This document shows positions 50,951 to 63,900 of a DNA stretch of 64,000 nucleotides, in pieces. The notes beneath the pieces were generated by a model that worked only from the letters and a program-made list of their open reading frames with translations, had not been told where the DNA came from and made no database searches. The translations under genes and the position numbers were made by a program. The stretch's first letter is position 1. Each line of letters begins with the position of its first letter. The DNA is taken from NCBI GenBank assembly GCA_032164295.1, contig JAJHTX010000001.1, forward strand, positions 2,480,001 through 2,544,000. The letters are read 5' to 3'. This stretch comes from Inonotus obliquus (Eukaryota; Basidiomycota; Agaricomycetes; Hymenochaetales; Hymenochaetaceae).

Positions 50951-53900
50951 ATGGTAGGCAGCAAATCGCGACCACCATCGCGACCAGTCACCAGGCAGTC
51001 CGCCGACAACCAGAATCCACCGTCTTATTCTGACCTTGAGCATGGTCGGAATCAGGCGTCCCAGGCATACATGGCTGCGACGACGATGACGACTGTGACG
51101 ACGACTGTACAGACAACTACCTTCTTTTCTTTGCCACTTTGGAGGCGCCGCACGGGGCCTCCCATGGCATTCCCGGCTAAGTCAGAAGGTTCGCATGCGA
51201 CGGAATTGCAAGGGCTAGCCACGGAAGACGGACGGATCGCTCGCTCAAGTAGCTACAACGTCGACTATAACAAACAGCTACCGGACATACCACCATCTGA
51301 GGAATTGGTTGATCCTACATTTGCGCGTCGGAATACTGGAATGATGTATTTTCCCACTGTTCAGCAAGATTCGGAGTCAAGCGCGAAGAGCACAAGGTCG
51401 TCTCGCTCGTCAACCTTGCTACCTCCGCAAGCTCAGTCGACGCGCACTCTCGCGCAAGCGGGTCTTGGTATCGGTCTTCCTCATGTCATGCCGTTAGCTG
51501 CTAGCTCAGCTCGGAACGCTTCACAACCTCCCGCTACGAGACCGAGTACCGCACCGAGGCCCATACGCCTGGGCACAAACCAAGAAGTCCGACGCGTCAA
51601 AAGCTTTTCACGATTCCAGACTGGACCTAGTACTGCTGCTCCAAGCACGGAAGACCGGGGCAGCTCAGTTCCACGGAAGAAGAGCACAACGCTGAGCGTT
51701 CCATCCGGTGAAAATTCTAGTCGTGACCCAGCTAGTGATGTTACCTTTGCATTACCGTCAAGTACCCGTCCGGAGTCGAAGCCCTTGATGAGGAGACCTT
51801 CATTTTGGAGTAGGAGGAGGGTGCAGTCGCTGAGAGCTTCGGATGAGGCACCATCTAATCCTAATACCCAACAAGATTCCGGTCTTGCACCTCCGCTTGC
51901 TTTACCTGCGTTTCAGCCAATTTCTCCAATGTTTCCGGAAAGGCCTGTGCAGTCATCCCCTGGGCCGTCTCCCCGTTCTCCCAGCTTTCAACCGTCTAGC
52001 AGGCTGAGGAGAAGGCACTCGGAGCGAAGCACGTCATCTCATCATTCACCTCTTTATGACTCGAGTTTCTCTGAACATCCTCCTCCCATTCCTCCGCGCT
52101 CTCCTTACCGCCCGGCCTCATCGCAAAAGGGAGCCAATGGAACCTTTTCGTCGATTCGAGAGCCGCAACCTCGCCCTGTACAAAATTCCATCACTACTTC
52201 ACCAGCGATTTCTCGACTTCCCGTGATAGACCAGCGACAGTCTCGACCACGGTCAATGACGAATCCTAACGTCTTGCAACGTCTCTCGATGGGGTTTTTC
52301 AATACTTCCTCTCCATCTACTCCCATTTCATCTCCATCAGTTTCTACGCATATAATGGATGAAAATTTCTCGTCATCTCCCAGAGAGTCTCGCACCTTTC
52401 CTAGACGCTCTTTCTCAAAATCAGCTGTTGAGATCCCGAAGCCACGGACAGACGAAGAGTCTCCCGAGGTATTCTTAGGGCGACTCGAAGCAGCCGTGAG
52501 TAAAGCTGAGATCGCAAATATTCTTGCGGCAAGGTTTGTTCACCATCCATGCCGTTATGATAGCAAAACTTACTGGCCTTGGTTTCCTAGCGGAGATTCT
52601 TTCTATTCTGCCGCTTTAAAGGCATACATCGATCGTTTCAACTTTACGAATGACCCGCTTGATATTGCACTTCGGAAACTGCTTATGGATGTGGGCTTGC
52701 CGAAGGAGACGCAACAGATTGATCGCGTTATCGAGGCATTTGCTGCCAGATACATGGCATGCAACCCGAATCTCTTCGTATCTCAGGGTAAATACATCAC
52801 ATCTGACATTTGAAAGATCCACCTGAACAACCGGTTCCTACTAGATCATCCGTACATCCTTGCGTTTAGCTTAATCATGCTCCACACGGACGCATACAAC
52901 AAGTCCAACAAGCGAAAAATGACGAAGGCAGACTATATAAAAAACACGAAGCTCGTAGGAGTGTCTACAGAAGTTCTTGACGTAAGGACTCTACCCGCCT
53001 ACAATCGCATGATTACGCTTAATCACTAAAAACCTAGTATTTCTTTGACAACATCGTGTTTGCACCGTTCATATTCATAGAAGACCCCATCGACGTGAAC
53101 GGACAGCGCGGTTTCACTCAAGATGGCAAATCACCTGTTTCAGGGAGCGGCCAGGGAACTCCTACCTTAAACGGGTCTGGGCTATCGGTGATGGGCAAAT
53201 CTAACAAAGTTGATGCATACTACCTTATTACGCGGGTAAGGGAAAACATACAGCCTAGTAAACTTCTCACTCAAGTGCCTCATAGAATCTTCTCCATGGT
53301 CTTCGGGTTGATGTGGAAACGTTCATTCCTCTGCGGAATCCATTCTCTTACCAAGGGACAGCGGGCTCGTGGAATGAGGCAGAACTCCGCAGGTCTTTCG
53401 CTCGAGCAGAAATGATTGACGTCGGTACTGTAGATCCCAGGAGGTCATCTACATTGCCGTTTTTCACAATGAATGTCGGCGGCGCGTCTGGCGCTCCTGT
53501 TAATGGCTTTGCTCCCCCTGTGGTATCGGAACAAGAGTGTATTCATCTGGAGTACTCGGCATTAAGGGTAACGAAAGTGGGTCTCCTCAACCGGAAGGGT
53601 AAGCGATTCCGCCCAGAATCGCCAGTATATTGCTAAATAATGCCATCTTAGATGATCTGTTGGGCGGGGGTAAACGTGCATCTAATAGAAGGTGGAGAGA
53701 GGTCAGCGTGATTCTGACCGGATCACAACTTCTCTTTTACAGAGATGCTGCGCTGGCTTTGAATCTCATAGTCCAGTCTCACTCCCCGGACAGTGAAACA
53801 TTCCCGGGTCAGTCTTCTTTCCTTAAGCCGGATGAGTTACTGTCCGTGAAGGATGCGATTGCTGTTTATGATTCGTCTTACGGCAAGGTATGGACAATAT

Positions 53901-55134
53901 TAATATTCACTGGTCGTATTTCTTCCTCTGACATTATGCTTGTTCTCGACAGCGAGATTACGTAGTGCGCCTTGTCATGTCGTCAGGCCGACAGATACTC
54001 TTGCAAACGGAAAACGAGATGCAGCGCAATGAATGGATTGCACACATCAACTATGCGAGCGCATTCAAGACAGCGGGGATCAGGATGCGTCCTGTTAGTG
54101 CGACGGAAAACGCCAGGATGGATCGTAGCTCTTATACGCGTGATGCTCCTCTCATCCCATCGGAATCCTCGACGTCTATTTCAGATGGAACAACCGAAGG
54201 CAACTGCACTACAACCACAGATACCCCTGATGCCGATGGTGGTAAACGAAGCCAAGAACACTCGGTCGACTTTGCAACAAATCTGCATTCTCGCTCAAGA
54301 ATTGTCCTAGGCAAAATACGAGAGTTCGAAGCGAAGATCGAGGCGGCGCGGACACAGCTTGAGTCGAATATAAGACTTGTCCATAACCTGGCTATTCTCA
54401 CACCATTCCAGCGATCTACTCGCGATCGGCTTCAGGCCGCGGTGGTCAATCTGTCTGGACACATCAGGCAGCTTCGCCTCGAAATAGTCAAGGCAACTTG
54501 CTTTCGAGATGTTCTAGCAGCAGACCTGGCATCTGAACAACGAGAGCAGAAATGTCGGAGGCAAGAAGATATTAGGCAGAGAGGTGGTCAGGATTGTATG
54601 AAAAAAGTTCACATTCCCTCGGTATCACTGTCTATGCACGAAGAGGCGGCCTTGTTCAATGGGCCTAGTCAATCTTTGTCTCGCAGTGATGTGTCCGACC
54701 TATCGCATGGGCAGCATGACTCTTCCATCTGCGAGTCGTTTCATTCCGCGCTTGACTTTGGCTCAGATTGGCCACGAAACAATCGCCCCCGTGGTAGTCT
54801 ACAGAAGGACAGTCCAACAATACAAAGCCTTGAACCAGTTTCGCCAGTTTGCACACCCTCCCATGAAATACCTCCAGGGAGTGTGAATGGATCAGGCTTC
54901 TTTGCGACCCCGTCCGCCGTTACACCTTCTGTTGATATCTCATCACCGCCGATCCCAGTGGCAATCAACCCTGTTGCTAGCCATAGAGTATCAGAGGAAC
55001 AAGCAGAGGAATGGGACAAGACACGCGCCGCTCGGCGGGTATCTCTAGTCAAGGTTCCCGCGACTCTGAAAGCTACGGACAAGATTGGGCATCCGACGAC
55101 TGGGCTTCAGACCAATCCCTTGACGGAGTCATAA
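50951..55134 (+). CDS. SYT1: Sec7-domain Arf guanine-nucleotide exchange factor with PH domain (SYT1-like)
   Basis: Predicted 1300 aa from exons 50951-52787, 52845-52981, 53038-53235, 53286-53598, 53652-53887 and 53953-55134. The first ~500 residues are Ser/Pro/Arg-rich and disordered. The Sec7 domain (~505-680) has LLMDVGLPKETQQIDRVIEAFAARY, with the catalytic glutamic finger at ~586, and HPYILAFSLIMLHTDAYNKSNKRKMTKADYIKNT. A split PH domain comes after (DDLLGGGKRASNRRWREVSVILTGSQLLFYRD, ending EMQRNEWIAHINYASA), then a coiled-coil-like helical stretch (~950-1020) and a disordered tail. SYT1-type GEFs activate Arf/Arl1 at the late Golgi. The exon 1/2 join uses the AG at 52844 and gives FVSQGDHPYILAF. 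Part of its 3' end is duplicated at 59746-60460. Confidence 0.93.
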
Positions 55135-55811
55135 TAACCATGCAGCTGCCATGACTCAATGGACAGCGACCTTAACTATACATAATCCTTTTATTTCGAT
55201 GAGCTATTGTGGGATTGGATTAATTATTCGATTATTTAGCGCAGATGGACACTTCAACGGGAATTAATAATCCTACTGGCGTAGGATGTATTTACAACCA
55301 TGCCATGGAATCGTGCATTATGTAATATTTCCCCAATATCGTGTTAATAATCAAAATTGTCTCATATGCATCCCAAGTATGGGAGCCTCCATCCTTTTCA
55401 ACCCAAAATCCTCACGGACAGAACCTCCTACAAACGCCATGCCTTCACTTGCCGCGAGAGTTGAAGATGATTAGTGATTCCAGACCGACTTCTCTTACAT
55501 AATCAGCTAAAAAGTCTTCTCAAGTTCGAGTTCTAATCAGCGGGGCCGCCCAGGCGCTTACTTACCTCTCTGGGTCAGGATCGGATAAGACTGTTCGGTG
55601 TGCCAATCAATTTACTATCACCAATTATTCCACATACTTTGTTGCCTCCGTCCTTTGAGGTACGCGAAGTGTTACCTTACCATTTGTTCCTATTCTCATA
55701 TCAACCGACCGCTCTGCTTACGTGAAGTCGTATCTCGAAGTATTAGGTACATCTTCACTATACACAAAGCATATCGCCTGACTAGACATGTTGCCATTCA
55801 AGGGTTTTAGC
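55135..55811. other. Intergenic region upstream of RdRP copy 1
   Basis: 3' flank of the Arf-GEF gene and promoter of the first RdRP. AT-rich (for example TTAATTATTCGATTATTTAG at 55220-55240). It has only weak local similarity to the matching gap before RdRP copy 2. A second ATG at 55788 is in frame with the RdRP but absent from copy 2. Confidence 0.5.
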
Positions 55812-58800
55812 ATGGAGGTCTTCATGTCGAACGTCAGTCTTGCAGCCGACGAGATCCAAATTGTTTTTGAGATCGCCAAGATCGTACACGACCTTCCGCA
55901 CTTTAAGCCGTTCAACATCGGTTCGCGGCTGAACTTCTACGTACGTCTCCATCACCCAAAGAGACACCGAGCCCGGGCGGCATTGTATCGTAGCGGGATT
56001 GTCGTTTTCCCTCTTGAGGACGTAGGCAAGCTCTTCCTTGAGCTCTGTGGGGGTGCCATAGCCCGCTTCCCTGTCACCATTGGTCGTCAACAGATCATTT
56101 TCCAGAAAGGCATGAAGAAACCAACGAAGCGGGTTGTAGACAGTCTCCGCAAGCGTCCCTTTCCAAATCTTCAGGAATTGCAAGAACAGCAAGAGAAGAG
56201 CGCATACATAAACGCGTCTGTTGTCCATCTGACCGAGGTACAGTTCGGCTGGGAGTGTCGAGATGGTGTCTTTTCCGTAGAACACGTCATAAACACCCCT
56301 TGCCAAATACACTTCAGTCGAGAGCGTCGAGAATTCGAGGTTTTGCTCAGTGGCGGTTCCGTGTCTTGCGAAAATATGGTAGTATCCTTCTCCCAGGTTC
56401 GGTGTATTTCCGCAAGTACGGACACATATGGAGCTTCCATGCTCTTTTCTCTCTTGCATGCTCCTAAATTCGAGTTTGGCCCGAGCCTCCCGATACTGGA
56501 GGAAAGACTCATGTCCAGCCTATTATATCAAAAGGAACAACGAACCAGGCAAAGGAGGATTTCTTTGGAAGGCGACGCTCACCGTCGTCTAGCGCCATAT
56601 GTTTCGATTGCTCTGCGAGTCCTATGCTCGCCTTCAGAGTACCGAACTTTTGCAGATCTTTGGCACCATTCGGAGACTCTTTTGCCTATGATACGGACCG
56701 ACTACCATGATGAGAGGAGGGACATCTTCTCCCATGCAGCCGTACAAGAAGTGCATCGCTGGTTGGAACAACTGAGCTGGCCCCTCGCGTTCCATGTTGA
56801 TGCCCTGATGCGAAACTTGACCATGGATCCAAAGGAAGTTCTGGAAACCAAGCCGGACATTGAGAAACTCGCCAAGGAGGAAGGAGATTCTTATTGTGCG
56901 GGTTTCGTACGCTTCTTCGGAGAGCAGCTCCGAATGCTGTGGTTCTCAGAAGAATCCCAGAACCAGGAATCGATTAAAGATTGTTTCAAGCTCTGCCGAG
57001 AAGAGTACAAGCATGTCCTCTTATCTGAGGATGAAGACCTCTTTAATTGTTTACATGTCTACGTAACTCCCACCTCCCTTCGCTTGTGTGGCCCCTTTCC
57101 AGAACGGACCAATCGAGTCATACGAAGGTACCCAAATCACAAAGACCATTTCGTGCGAGTCGCATTCGTGGATGAGGATCTCCTGCATTTAAGGCTTGAT
57201 AATCATATAGATGGACGAGCTTTCATCCATTCCCATGTAGGACGGACTTTACGCGATGGGTTATCCATTGCCGGAAGGCGTCTGGAGTTTCTACATTACT
57301 CCCAGTCAGCGCTGAAGGATCATGCTGTCTGGTTCATATACCCGTTTTATGATGAAACAAGCAGACGTCGCATCGACGCAGGAACGATTTTAGATGAGCT
57401 TGGCACATTCAATAACCTTTCTTTCGACAGGAGGCTAGTCTATTGTCCAGCGCGTTACGCAGCTCGGATCGCGCAGGCATTCACGACAACGGACAGCTCG
57501 ATCACCGTTGATCCTGGAGAAATCATCATCGAGAATGACATCAAGTCTCAATCGGGGTCTTGCTTCACGGACGGCGTCGGGACCGTTTCACCAAAGCTAG
57601 CAAATGAGATGTGGAAGATACTACGCTCGAAGAAACGTCGAGGTTTTCGATCCGCAGACCATCCATCTCCTCGAGCTTTTCAGATCCGGTTTCGAGGTTC
57701 CAAGGGTATGATCAGTGTTGACCATACACTTTCAGGCAGAGTCCTCGTATTGCGACCGTCCATGATCAAGTTTGAGGCGGCGGAAAGAGAGATTGAGATA
57801 GCTGGTGTATTCAACAAACCGGGAAAGATGTTTCTGAATCGACCTTTGATAATGATACTTGAAGGCCTTGGTGTACCCGCGGATGTTTTTCTGAAACTGC
57901 AGAGAGAAGCCGTGCAAAACGTCATGCAATCCACGAGTTCCTTAGAGGCCACATCTACCATGTTAGACAACTACGGACTTGGTCAGTCATTCAGGCTCAC
58001 GTCGTGCCTCCGAAATTTGTCGAAGTTGGAAGCAAATCGCGTACCCGTTGACGGTTTCTATGCTAAAATCATACGGAACGCCATCTTTCACATTCTGCGC
58101 GACCTGAAGCATCGAAGTCGTATTCCCGTGCCAGGATGGACTCTGGTTGGTGTTGCGGACGTCCATTCTTACCTGAAAGAAGGAGAAGTTTTCGTTTGCA
58201 TCGAGGAGAAAAGAGGCGTTAGGAAATTCTTACAGGGGCTAGTCTCTATCTCTCGATCTCCAACGATCCATCCGGGAGATGTCCAGCTTGCCCGTGCAAT
58301 AGGCCCACCTCCAGCTGGTTCTCCTTTTGCGAAAGAGGCTCTGCAAAACACTCTTGTATTCTCCACAATGGGTGGGTGATAGCTTTATCTTTCACCTTCA
58401 ATGGGATGCTTACAGGAATCGCATTCATACCACGAAAAGGCAACAGGTCCCTGCCGTCCTGTCTAGGCGGAGGAGATTTGGACGGAGATTTATACAATAT
58501 AACATGTTATAGCGAACTAATACCACCTCGGACAATTAGGCCGGCATGCTATGATCCCGCGGTGAGGAAGGAAGTCGAGCATCCGAGCAATCGGAACGAC
58601 GTGATTGATTTTATTAGTGACTATATTGTTGCTGATGTGAGTCACAGAAGACCTGTACATGTATATCGACATTTTTATGACGATTTGTGTTCTAGAACGT
58701 GGGGATAATAGCGACAAACTGGCTACTCATAGCCGATCAGAGTTCTGAGGGCATTCATGATGGTGACTGTATGAAGCTTGCCGAGTTGCATAATGCCGCC

Positions 58801-59559
58801 GTGGACTACGCAAAGAGCGGAAATGCCGTACCTATGGAGGGTGTTCCTCGACCACTCCCTCTAGACAGACCAGATTGGTCAGAACCTGAGACGGGTCAAA
58901 CTTCGCCTCTAAACACTATCCGGTACTATCAGAGCGAACGGGCGATTGGTCAACTGTACCGCGATATTGACCTCTCTGACGCTTCGCTGACCTCCTTATT
59001 GGAGCACTCTGGCACAAACAAGCTAGCCAACATGATCCGCAAGCTCCCACTGTTCGAAATGCACGAGAAACCTCCCAATGAGCGTGATGAATTGTGGCGG
59101 GCTGTGAAATCGAAGGTTCAGGAATTTACGGAGGACCTGGACATTCCACCCGACGAGTCTACTTACATTGACAACCTTTTCCGATCGTACTCACAGGAGC
59201 TACGATGTATATGTTCGGCAAATTCATTGAGCAATAGACGTGATTCGCAACTCAGTGAGGCGGAGGCTTTCATCGGAACAATCACAGCGAGGACGTCCCA
59301 GCGCAAGAGGCGAAGAAATCTTATCGCAAAGCTCAGGGAGCATACTAATCAGCTGGTTACGGACGTGAAGTACGAAATTGCCGGAGACGATGATGCTCCT
59401 AAGCTGGATCGTTTGCGAACGGCGTGGGCCTCGTGGCAATTGTCCATACGAAAGATCAAGCAGAAGAAGTTTGGGGCACCAAGCTTCTTTTGGGTGGCGC
59501 TGAGCTCAATATTCGACGCCATCAAGTCTATTGAAGAAGAGGAGGAAGAGGGCAACTGA
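55812..59559 (+). CDS. RNA-dependent RNA polymerase (QDE-1/RDR family), copy 1
   Basis: Predicted 1214 aa from exons 55812-58371, 58416-58636 and 58696-59559. Cellular RdRPs of this family make double-stranded RNA for RNA silencing (quelling). The catalytic loop is SCLGGGDLDGDLYN with the metal-binding DxDGD at ~874-878. Upstream conserved blocks include AGTILDELGTFNNLSF (~530), CFTDGVGTVSPKLANEMWKIL, QIRFRGSKGMISVDHTL, RPSMIKFE and the segment PGWTLVGVADVHSYLKEGEVFVCI. After the loop come IVADNVGIIATNWLLIADQSSEGIHDGDCMKLAELHNAAVDYAKSG, the usual post-catalytic region, and a helical C-terminus ending in a Glu-rich run. I start at MEVF because copy 2 begins there too; an in-frame ATG eight codons upstream is possible. 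No N-terminal RNA-binding domain is recognised. Confidence 0.93.
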
Positions 59560-59745
59560 AAGAGTTCATGGAAGTAGGAGTGGAAACATCCAGAGGTTCC
59601 ACATGTATTCGTATAAGAGTATATGTGATACAGTTGAACAATTGCAAAGAAACATGGTAAGTAGTAGGCCGATATCCGATCCAAATGTCAATAATGATGG
59701 GCATTACAATTTCGGGGCCAGAAACGAGAACGATAGGGAACCTCT

Positions 59746-60460
59746 AATATTTTGCTAACAATGTCACCCTATAATAGACAATCTATTAGATGGTGGTAAA
59801 CGAGAAGGTGGAGAGAGGTCAGCGTGATTCTGAAACACAACTTCTCTTTAACAGAGATGCTGCGCTGGCGCTGAGTCCAGTGACTCCAGTCTCACTCTCC
59901 GGACAGTGAAACATTCCCGGGTCAGTCTTCTTTCCTTAAGCCGGATGAGTTACTGTCCGTGAAGGATGCAATTGCTGTTTATGATTCGTCTTACGGCAAG
60001 GTATTTACATAATATTCACTGGTCGTATTTCTTCCTCTGACATTATGCTTGTTCTCGACAGCGAGATTACGTAGTGCGCCTTGTCATGTCGTCAGGCCGA
60101 CAGATCCTCTTGCAGACGGAAAACGAGATGCAGAGCAATGAATGGATTGCACACATCAACTATGCGAGCGCGTTCAAGACAGCAGTGATCAGGATGCGTC
60201 CTGTTAGTGCGACGGAAAACGCCAGGATGGATCGTTACGCGTGATGCTCCTCTCATCCCATCGGAATCCTCCACATCTCATCGGTCAATCCTGTTGTTGG
60301 CCATAAGTATCAAAGGAGCAAGCATAGAAGGGGACAAGACGCGTCGAGGCTCCCGCGACTTTGAAAGCTACTGATAAGACTGAGGTCATCGAGGCGAATG
60401 AACGGTTCCCTGTGGTTTTCTATCATAATTTGTGTTAGGATTGGATTATTATTATGTACA
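59746..60460 (+). pseudogene. Decayed duplicate of the Arf-GEF 3' end
   Basis: Matches exons 5 and 6 of the SYT1-like gene and the intron between them (copy of 53640-54180), including the PH-domain segment and the acceptor TCTCGACAG. It carries small deletions (about 12 nt after GGTAAACG, several bases in TCTGA-CCGG, and 7 nt before TTACGCGTGATGC), which break the frame. It then jumps from the copy of ~54175 to that of ~54960, losing ~780 bp. It ends near 60385 with weaker similarity to ~60460. It has no Sec7 domain and no start, so it cannot make a GEF. Confidence 0.88.
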
Positions 60461-60998
60461 ATATTAATGGTAGTATTATATAATACTCCTTTTGCTTATA
60501 TAATTCAAGGACTCGGTTCGTCACCGCCGTGCCGCCGTTTAGTTCTCTTGGGCAGTCATCCTTAAGCTCGAGTACTACAGTGCTAGTTTTCATCACCATC
60601 TCTCACCATATGCGTACTATTTGTGGATGTCTTGCAGATGTCGCGTTCTCATACTTGTTCAGGTGATGTCCCCGAAGGGATATGAGCTTGCTTCTCAATC
60701 AAACTCGTGCAAAGAATACTGGAACTCTCGAGTCCCAACCTAATAGATGGGCGCTTAACTCTGGGTTAATTATGTATATAGGGACGCAGACGCGGATGTT
60801 CCCAAACCGCTTTCAAGCTCCTATCACCCTCTTCCCATTCTTCATTACCTTTACTCCAGACGGTGTCCTGCCGATACGTACAGAAGATTGGTCCTCCCGT
60901 TTACAAACAGAGCCATACCTTGAGACACCAGGCGGGTATCGATGATGCTTGAAATAAGACACTCGTGCTGACGACACCCCCTTTCCAGGTGTTTCGTC
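60461..60998. other. Region upstream of RdRP copy 2
   Basis: Presumed promoter of the second RdRP. A plus-strand frame at 60682-60945 has no recognised similarity. AT-rich at 60440-60500 (TATTATATAATACTCC). Confidence 0.5.
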
Positions 60999-63900
60999 AT
61001 GGAGGTTTTTGTGACAAACATCAGTTTCGCAGCCAACCGAATTCAAATAATCTCTGCTATTGCCATGGTTGTGCACCACCACTCAGACTTTGAGTCATTC
61101 AACGTTGATTCTCGGCTGAACTTTGACGTGCACCTCCATCACCCAAAGAAACACCGTGCCCGTGTGGCATTGTATCGAACTGGTACTGTCACTTTTCCCT
61201 TAGAAGACATTGGCCGGCGCTTCCTTGAACTCTGCGGAGGCAGAAATCCTCGCTTGCGCATCATCACTGGTCGCCAACCAATGACTTTCCAAATAAGCAG
61301 GAACAGTCCGCGGCAGCGAGTGGTGGATAGTATTCGCAAGCTTCCGTTTCAAGACCCTCTGGAATTACAGGAACAAGAAGAGAGGCGTAGGTACCTCAAT
61401 GCAACTGTTGTCCATCTGTCCGAGGTCCAGTTTGGCTGGGAATGTCGGGATGGTGTCTTTTCTGTGGAGCACGCTATTAAGGCCAATTGCAGAATGCACT
61501 TCGGACAAGAACGGCGAGAATTCGAGATTTCGCTCGGGGATGGATTCGAAAATTGCGAAAACATTGTGGTATCCTTTTCTCAGGTGGAACGTATTACCGC
61601 GACTCTTGATACTTTTGAGGCTTCCGTGCTCTTTAGTCTACAACATGCGCCAAAATTCGAGTTTGGCCCGATTCTCCCGATACTGGAGCAAAGGTCCAGA
61701 TTTCAACGTTCTGATTATCAGCAAGCCAGGCAAAGGAAGTGCTCATTGGAAGGCGACAATCACCATCGTTTAGCGCCCTATGCTTCGCTCGCACTGCGTC
61801 TCCTATGCTCACCGTCAGACTACCGGATTTTTGCCGATCTTTGGCACGATTCCGAAACGCATTTACCTGTATCACAGATCGATTACCAAGTGGAGAGCAG
61901 AGACATATTCTCATCTGCAGCCCTACAGGAGCTGCACAGCTGGATGGAGCAACTGACATGGCTTCTCGCATTCCATATCGATGCTCTGTTACGCAATTTG
62001 ACCATGGATCCAAAAGAAGTTTTGGACATCAAGCCAGACATTACGAAGCTCATGGCCGAGGAGGACGAATCGTTTTGTGCGGGTTTGCTTCATTTTTTCG
62101 GAGAGCAGCTCAGAATGCTGTGGTTTTCTGACGACTCTCAGTCCCAGGAGTCGGTCAAAGATTGCTTTCTGCGCTGTCGAGAAGATTACAAACATACCCT
62201 CCTACCCGAGGCGGAAGACCTCTTTCGCTGTTTGCATGTCTACGCCACACCCACCTCCCTTCACTTGCATGGTCCCTTCCCAGAACAGACTAATCGCGTC
62301 ATACGCAGATACCCAGATCACAAAGACCATTTCGTACGAGTCGCCTTCGTGGACGAGGGTCATTTGCGATTCAGATTCGATGGTCACATAGATGGACGAG
62401 CTTTCATCCATTCCCATATGGGACAGATATTACGCAATGGGTTATCCATTGCCGGAAGGCGTCTGGAGTTTCTACACTACTCCCAGTCAGCGCTGAAGGA
62501 TCATGCTGTCTGGTTCATATACCCGTTTCATGATGAAACAAGCAGACGTCGCATCGACGCAGGAACGATTTTAGATGAGCTTGGCACATTCAATAACCTT
62601 TCTTTCGACAGGAGGCTAGTCTATTGTCCAGCGCGTTACGCAGCTCGGATCTCGCAAGCATTCACGACAACGGACAGCTCGATCACCGTTGATCCTGGAG
62701 AAATCATCATCGAGAATGACATCAAGTCTCAATCGGGGTCTTGCTTCACGGACGGCGTCGGGACCGTTTCACCAAAGCTAGCAAATGAGATGTGGAAGAT
62801 ACTACGCTCGAAGAAACGTCGAGGTTTTCGATCCGCAGACCATCCATCTCCTCGAGCTTTTCAGATCCGGTTTCGAGGTTCCAAGGGTATGATCAGTGTT
62901 GACCATACACTTTCAGGCAGAGTCCTCGTATTGCGACCGTCCATGATCAAGTTTGAGGCGGCGGAAAGAGAGATTGAGATAGCTGGTGTATTCAACAAAC
63001 CGGGAAAGATGTTTCTGAATCGACCTTTGATAATGATACTTGAAGGCCTTGGTGTACCCGCAGATGTTTTTCTGAAACTGCAGAGGGAAGCGGTACGAAA
63101 CGTCATGCAATCCACGAGTTCCCTAGAGGCCACATCTACCATGTTAGGCAACTACGGACTTGGTCAGTCATTCAGGCTCACGTCATGCCTCCGAAATTTG
63201 TCGAAGCTGGAAGCAAAAGGCATACCAATCGATTCCTTCTATGCAAAGGTTATACGGAATGCACACTTTCACATTCTACGGGACCTCAAGCATAAAGCTC
63301 GTATTTTCGTGCCAGGATGGACCCTAGTTGGTGTAGCGGACGTTCACTCGTATCTAAACGAAGGAGAAGTATTCGTTTGCATTGAGGAGAAAAGGGGTGT
63401 GAGGAAATATTTGCAGGGTCCAGTCTCGATCTCTCGATCTCCAACGATCCATCCGGGAGATGTCCAGCTTGCCCGTGCAATAGGCCCTCCTCCACCTGGT
63501 TCTCCTTTCGCGGAAGAGGCTTTGGAAAATACCCTTGTATTCTCCACGAAGGGTGGGTGATATCTTCCTTGTATTCCTACCTTTGACAGGACACTCACTG
63601 GAGTCATCTTCATCTCATAAAAGGCGAGAGGTCTCTGCCATCCTGTTTAGGCGGAGGGGACTTGGATGGCGATTTGTACAACGTAACGGATTATAGGCAA
63701 CTACTACCACGTCGGACAAGTTCGCCGGCATCGTATGATCCTGCGAAGAGGAAAGAGATGGACCATCCGAGCAGCCGGAACGATGTAATAGATTTCATAT
63801 GTGACTATATTGTCGCGGATGTGAGTGATGAAAGTCCTATCTGAAAATTGACACGCCGGATGACGATATGCGTTCTAGAACGTGGGGATAATAGCGACAA

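Follow-up and report, generated by a model that had tools for sequence, protein, structure and literature searches.

The window, a stretch of 64,000 nucleotides of the Inonotus obliquus genome, contains two genes for RNA-dependent RNA polymerases (RdRPs), which lie in direct tandem on the forward strand. Copy 1 occupies positions 55788..59559 and consists of three exons (55788-58371, 58440-58636 and 58696-59559) encoding a protein of 1214 amino acids. Its spliced translation is unbroken, the introns are of the GT..AG type, and the PF05183 profile matches exons 1 and 3 with 400.8 and 81.5 bits, respectively. Copy 2 starts at 60999 and extends past the window end (64000) to about 64742, with exons 60999-63552, 63624-63820 and 63879 onward; it encodes 1204 amino acids. 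The spliced translation of copy 2, including the genome DNA beyond the window, is also unbroken, and its exon 1 matches PF05183 with 400.3 bits. The DLDGD catalytic loop is located at residue 874 in copy 1 and 864 in copy 2. Both copies thus combine the PF05183 domain and DLDGD with an intact frame, as is characteristic of eukaryotic RdRPs of RNA interference. The solved structures matched by the RdRP profile are chains of RNA-dependent RNA polymerase 2, which we take to be plant RDR2, and of QDE-1. The closest proteins to the two RdRPs belong to Sanghuangporus baumii (61-64%), followed among named organisms by Phellopilus and Coniferiporia (7994 and 7998 candidates, those sharing most words, were scored). 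The two introns show 72% and 79% ungapped identity between the copies, with 3 and 4 gap events.

The gene upstream of copy 1 features a Sec7 domain (PF01369, 61 bits), and a later ORF has a weak PH match below the cut-off; these two ORFs appear to constitute a single gene. The 3′ flank of copy 1 resembles that of copy 2 until about 59745, and homology to the upstream gene begins at about 59757. Read by eye, the interval 59745..59757 is the approximate position of an ancestral duplication junction, and this one junction likely reflects the direct tandem duplication of an approximately 6.1-kb unit.

A broken remnant of the Sec7-domain gene (59748..60391, forward strand) is found between the RdRP genes. 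Its source is 53627-55096, and about 790 bp are missing internally. The best-kept part, 59851-60272, is partnered by positions 53739..54171 of the Sec7-domain gene on the same strand, with 405 matches, 15 mismatches and 5 gap events (96.4% ungapped identity over 420 aligned positions). On the copy 2 side, the remnant contains stop codons in all three forward frames and is non-coding. Its edges align at 87% on the left (6 gap events) and, beyond the deletion on the right, at 89% (9 gap events), values of little weight, since shuffled DNA reaches about 80% under the same scoring. The 5′ flanks of the RdRP genes (55135-55787 and 60410-60998) are 82% identical without gaps, with 79 gap events, and 20 shuffles averaged 79.5% and reached 83.6% at most. 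As these flanks align no better than shuffles and the remnant is 96% identical, the neutral remnant is young and the adjoining DNA is saturated. This juxtaposition is accounted for by homogenisation of the remnant. The remnant could also have arrived separately and late, but its unit-like order would then be unexplained.

Silent divergence between the two copies

The original prediction described an ungapped alignment of 57258-57900 with 62439-63081 at a constant offset of 5181 with about five mismatches. The alignment contains exactly 5 differences in 643 positions, namely at 57296, 57348, 57471, 57476 and 57881. The identical core, announced as 57476-57880 (about 405 bp), proved to be 57477-57880 (404 bp), position 57476 being itself a mismatch. 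The divergence reported upstream, synonymous positions included, was confirmed as well: 100-column windows of exon 1 from 55862 to 57261 are 68-85% identical, and pS and dS over 55788-57255 amount to 0.52 and 0.89.

The values of dS were calculated by the Nei-Gojobori method with the Jukes-Cantor correction, using our own script. The sliding dS analysis, suggested as a check together with the prediction, shows that silent divergence is not uniform along the gene. It is 0.887 over 55788-57255, falls to 0.020 over 57256-57880 (3 silent differences per 150.7 sites, 95% interval 0.004-0.058), rises to 0.280 over 57881-58061 (silent 10/43) and reaches 1.057 over 58062-58247, with the fall and return all within one exon. 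The end of exon 1 (58248-58371) has a dS of 0.198 and exon 2 of 0.818; exon 3 shows 0.286 (58696-58860), 0.305 (58861-59340) and 0.117 (59341-59559, silent 5/46). These discontinuities are observed directly and are highly significant. The longest run of codons with identical silent sites comprises 128 codons, whereas the maximum in 10,000 shuffles was 60 and the mean 23; the top silent segment, 57207-58023, was equalled in none of 5000 shuffles; and the comparison of silent differences in the tract (3/151) and upstream of it (168/322) yields a Fisher p of 2e-32.

The main tract covers 57256..57880 of copy 1 (forward strand, residues 490-698) and 62437..63061 of copy 2 (forward strand, offset 5181). 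It lies upstream of the catalytic loop, as had been predicted, in what is presumably the first of the RdRP's two barrel domains. On the left, the tract ends sharply at 57255/57256; on the right, identity declines gradually over 57881-58061. The tract sequence was found in at least two places in the genome, 5181 bp apart and on the same strand. The protein search detected no third close copy, and a third genomic copy acting as a common donor was found by neither the genome nor the protein search. The donor could not be read from GC3, which is alike in both copies, or from amino-acid polarity, for which the tract offers one polarisable difference.

The bounded drop in dS supports the gene conversion originally proposed, but not its description as a single tract, since several homogenised segments exist, one of them outside the gene. 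The second segment is older and patchy and is located at the 3′ end of copy 1 (about 59038..59547, forward strand), its partner in copy 2 lying beyond the window at approximately 64221-64730. Its 140 same-residue codons show 9 silent differences, and the score of 59038-59545, computed with the first segment removed beforehand, was equalled in 0 of 5000 shuffles. Two short patches on the forward strand are weaker and suggestive, namely 58248..58325 (25 codons, 1 silent difference; equalled in 152 of 5000 shuffles) and 58735..58908 (51 codons, 6 silent differences; 194 of 5000). A fifth patch of the scan, equalled in 3392 of 5000 shuffles, counts as nothing.

In the exon 3 part 58984-59340, stretches of about 50 bp without a difference are interspersed with tightly clustered differences, many of which change amino acids. 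Over 59038-59187, pN is 0.19 and pS is 0.22; positive selection is not claimed for an exon in which identical runs and clusters alternate in this way. The pattern is read as patchy conversion across a fast-evolving linker, and either this or paralog-specific selection on the linker may underlie it.

Origin of the near-identical segments

In protein trees of the N part, the core and the C part, copies 1 and 2 are sisters, and the segments differ in branch lengths only. Since this holds for every segment, flanks included, the lineage had apparently already separated from Sanghuangporus when the duplication took place. Attaching copy 1 or copy 2 in the N part to a single S. baumii protein (four tests) or to the group of S. 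baumii A, B and P0003 (two tests) was rejected in all six cases (p<0.001). These topology tests reject the idea that the two copies are orthologs of different S. baumii proteins.

The path between the copies, relative to the path from copy 1 to S. baumii A (P0001), is 0.52/1.03 (51%) in the N part, 0.0095/0.36 (2.6%) in the core and 0.17/0.53 (33%) in the C part, as obtained from our own sums of branch lengths in the protein trees. Scaling by the divergence from Sanghuangporus divides out amino-acid constraint, which is therefore not the cause of the plateau. Copy 1 and S. baumii A are 79% identical in the tract and 46-61% in four N segments. Thus, 21% of the tract residues differ between these two proteins, yet 99% are shared by copies 1 and 2.

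A second, more distant RdRP-like pair (L027/L028) is arranged in direct tandem on contig C4 at about 486-499 kb. Its copies are 81% identical over 3839 aligned columns, with 100-column windows of 61-93% and a longest identical run of 45 bp; in terms of total DNA identity, not dS, no plateau was found over the aligned part. The C4 pair is also accompanied by a flanking repeat of 826 columns, 92% identical, with a 170-aa ORF in both copies.

Interlocus gene conversion, acting as a mosaic of events, is by far the best account of the plateau, and we regard it as very probable. The silent identity is bounded and far above that of the flanks, a homologous template is present in the genome, and the effect goes beyond selective constraint. 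The reading is based on a single assembly of one strain.

An artefact of assembly or polishing, in which reads of one copy overwrote the middle of the other, is very unlikely. Short-read polishing can erase the few differences between near-identical tracts located 5 kb apart, which counts in its favour. However, the window sits in a 4.36-Mb contig (C1) of a 36.07-Mb assembly of 30 contigs, the tract retains four differences in its interior and ends gradually on the right. Furthermore, the segments are homogenised to different degrees and ages, both reading frames are intact, and the remnant, at 96% identity, has indels of its own.

Still less probable is a recent tandem duplication whose divergent blocks are imports from a strongly differing allele or relative. 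Its appeal lies in the similar youth of the remnant (15 mismatches per 420 positions) and the tract, but the near-identical blocks differ in age: the silent counts of 3/151 in the tract, 5/46 at 59341-59559 and 10/43 at 57881-58061 rule out one age for all of them. The divergent N part is, moreover, about half as deep as the Sanghuangporus split, which is very deep for an allele. Purifying selection alone, with an RdRP core unable to change, fits the location of the tract in the more conserved part of the protein but can be practically dismissed, as 21% of the tract residues do differ between the two fungi, silent sites are frozen as well, the C4 pair lacks a plateau and the remnant is non-coding. 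At silent sites it would hold only under a constraint acting on the DNA or RNA itself.

Under gene conversion, the unit of about 6.1 kb, consisting of the 3′ part of the Sec7-domain gene and one RdRP, would have been duplicated in tandem after the split from Sanghuangporus. Divergence of the copies would then have brought dS to about 0.9 in the 5′ exon and erased all recognisable similarity upstream of it. Breaks in one copy would afterwards have been repaired with the other as a template, which would have overwritten parts of the sequence in several events of conversion between direct repeats 5.18 kb apart. The latest overwriting would have affected about 0.63 kb of the RdRP middle, and an earlier one the 3′ end; the gene remnant would have been overwritten too. 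The molecular step would presumably be a non-reciprocal, directional transfer with repair as its trigger.

The locus is similar to known cases of interlocus (ectopic) conversion between tandem paralogs, with sharp tracts of several hundred bp in older direct repeats, divergent flanks and mixed ages. There is no difference in mechanism; what stands out here is the family of genes involved and the possibility that one module has been used repeatedly. Recursive ectopic conversion of paralogs is described in work on Aspergillus flavus and A. oryzae (PMC12844118), where fungal paralogs of one chromosomal region have likewise been converted repeatedly. That work associates the process with gene splitting, gene loss and elevated mutation, whereas both RdRPs of the window are intact. 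Four RdRPs each were reported for S. vaninii and S. baumii, with RdRP-3 and RdRP-4 as sister clades, in a paper whose main text does not contain the word 'tandem' (PMC9769868). Duplication of fungal Argonaute genes is discussed in another paper, with neither 'gene conversion' nor 'tandem' occurring in its main text (PMC4290597). No report of conversion between RdRP paralogs was found in the part of the open-access literature covered.

Low-divergence segments in other fungal RdRP pairs

Protein pairs from this and other fungi were scanned for segments with fewer differences than predicted from the per-site variability of 33 reference RdRPs. The 22 pairs were chosen by eye, non-exhaustively, from the best 120 of 149 matches and a further 101 matches; two RdRPs of one species were taken as a same-contig pair when their contigs had the same length. 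They comprise six same-contig pairs, seven within-genome pairs of unestablished linkage and nine cross-species pairs, two of which are copies 1 and 2 of the window versus S. baumii A. Locus tags, such as PHLCEN_2v11752/11754 in Hermanssonia and NLI96_g2800/g2801 in Meripilus, make adjacency likely in Meripilus, Cerrena and Hermanssonia only, and the models of the Hermanssonia proteins are incomplete or fused. The null model treats sites as independent, and the overlap between pairs was noticed post hoc.

The window pair has the strongest segment (residues 491-749), with 4 differences observed versus 39.1 expected, a score of 29.8 and no equal in 2000 simulations. It is followed by the Hermanssonia pair P0022/P0049 (626-815; 13 versus 46.1, score 23.6) and the Meripilus pair P0047/P0068 (618-811; 3 versus 25.3, score 17.8). 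A strong block overlapping residues 618-749 is therefore present in three of the six same-contig pairs. The Wolfiporia pair P0134/P0140 (717-978; 5 versus 22.8, score 11.3) overlaps this region partially, and the segment of the Vararia pair (1167-1198; 0 versus 9.8, score 11.8) is outside it. Cerrena 1740/1741 has no low block (score 6.7, met in 306 of 2000 simulations). An earlier version of the scan with eight pairs placed the same pairs on top.

Among the 16 comparison pairs, the top score was 10.1 (Cerrena 1740/3286, 311-348; met in 14 of 2000 simulations). In six of the 16, the best segment, although weak (met in 90 to 1772 of 2000 simulations), lies in or overlaps 618-815: C. weirii 607-672, Rhodofomes 704-710, Peniophora 719-749, Trametes cingulata/sanguinea 718-752, Rhodofomes/Daedalea 704-777 and copy 1/S. 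baumii A 765-810. Because of these weak dips, the site-rate model may slightly underrate conservation at 618-815. Hermanssonia A and B are unresolved as sisters in the N-part tree and are sisters in the tree of 618-815 (SH-aLRT 99); in both trees, Meripilus A and B form a sister pair.

These protein comparisons leave room for a tentative and rather doubtful generalisation, namely that tandem RdRPs of Agaricomycetes could undergo modular concerted evolution. The middle part (residues of approximately 490-815, ahead of the catalytic loop) would be homogenised repeatedly in independent pairs and the N-terminus would remain free, so that paralogs might specialise there and share the polymerase module. 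The Vararia, Cerrena and C4 pairs show no sign of homogenisation in the middle region. On a simple reading, conversion requires sequence identity and hence mostly succeeds where the RdRP is most conserved.

Implications for RdRP evolution

The mechanism is ordinary, and the point of interest is its possible recurrence over one RdRP module. Should this module be homogenised in fungi that are not related as well, the question arises whether selection or mere sequence conservation directs the homogenisation. A homogenised core and a drifting N part would leave the copies with a shared polymerase core and different N-termini. With 404 identical bases in common, small RNAs of one copy could act on the other. 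RdRP counts and trees serve to infer the evolution of RNA silencing in fungi. If tandem copies overwrite each other's middles, trees of the RdRP domain would assign duplications too young an age and cluster paralogs by species, and the N-terminal part would tell a different story.
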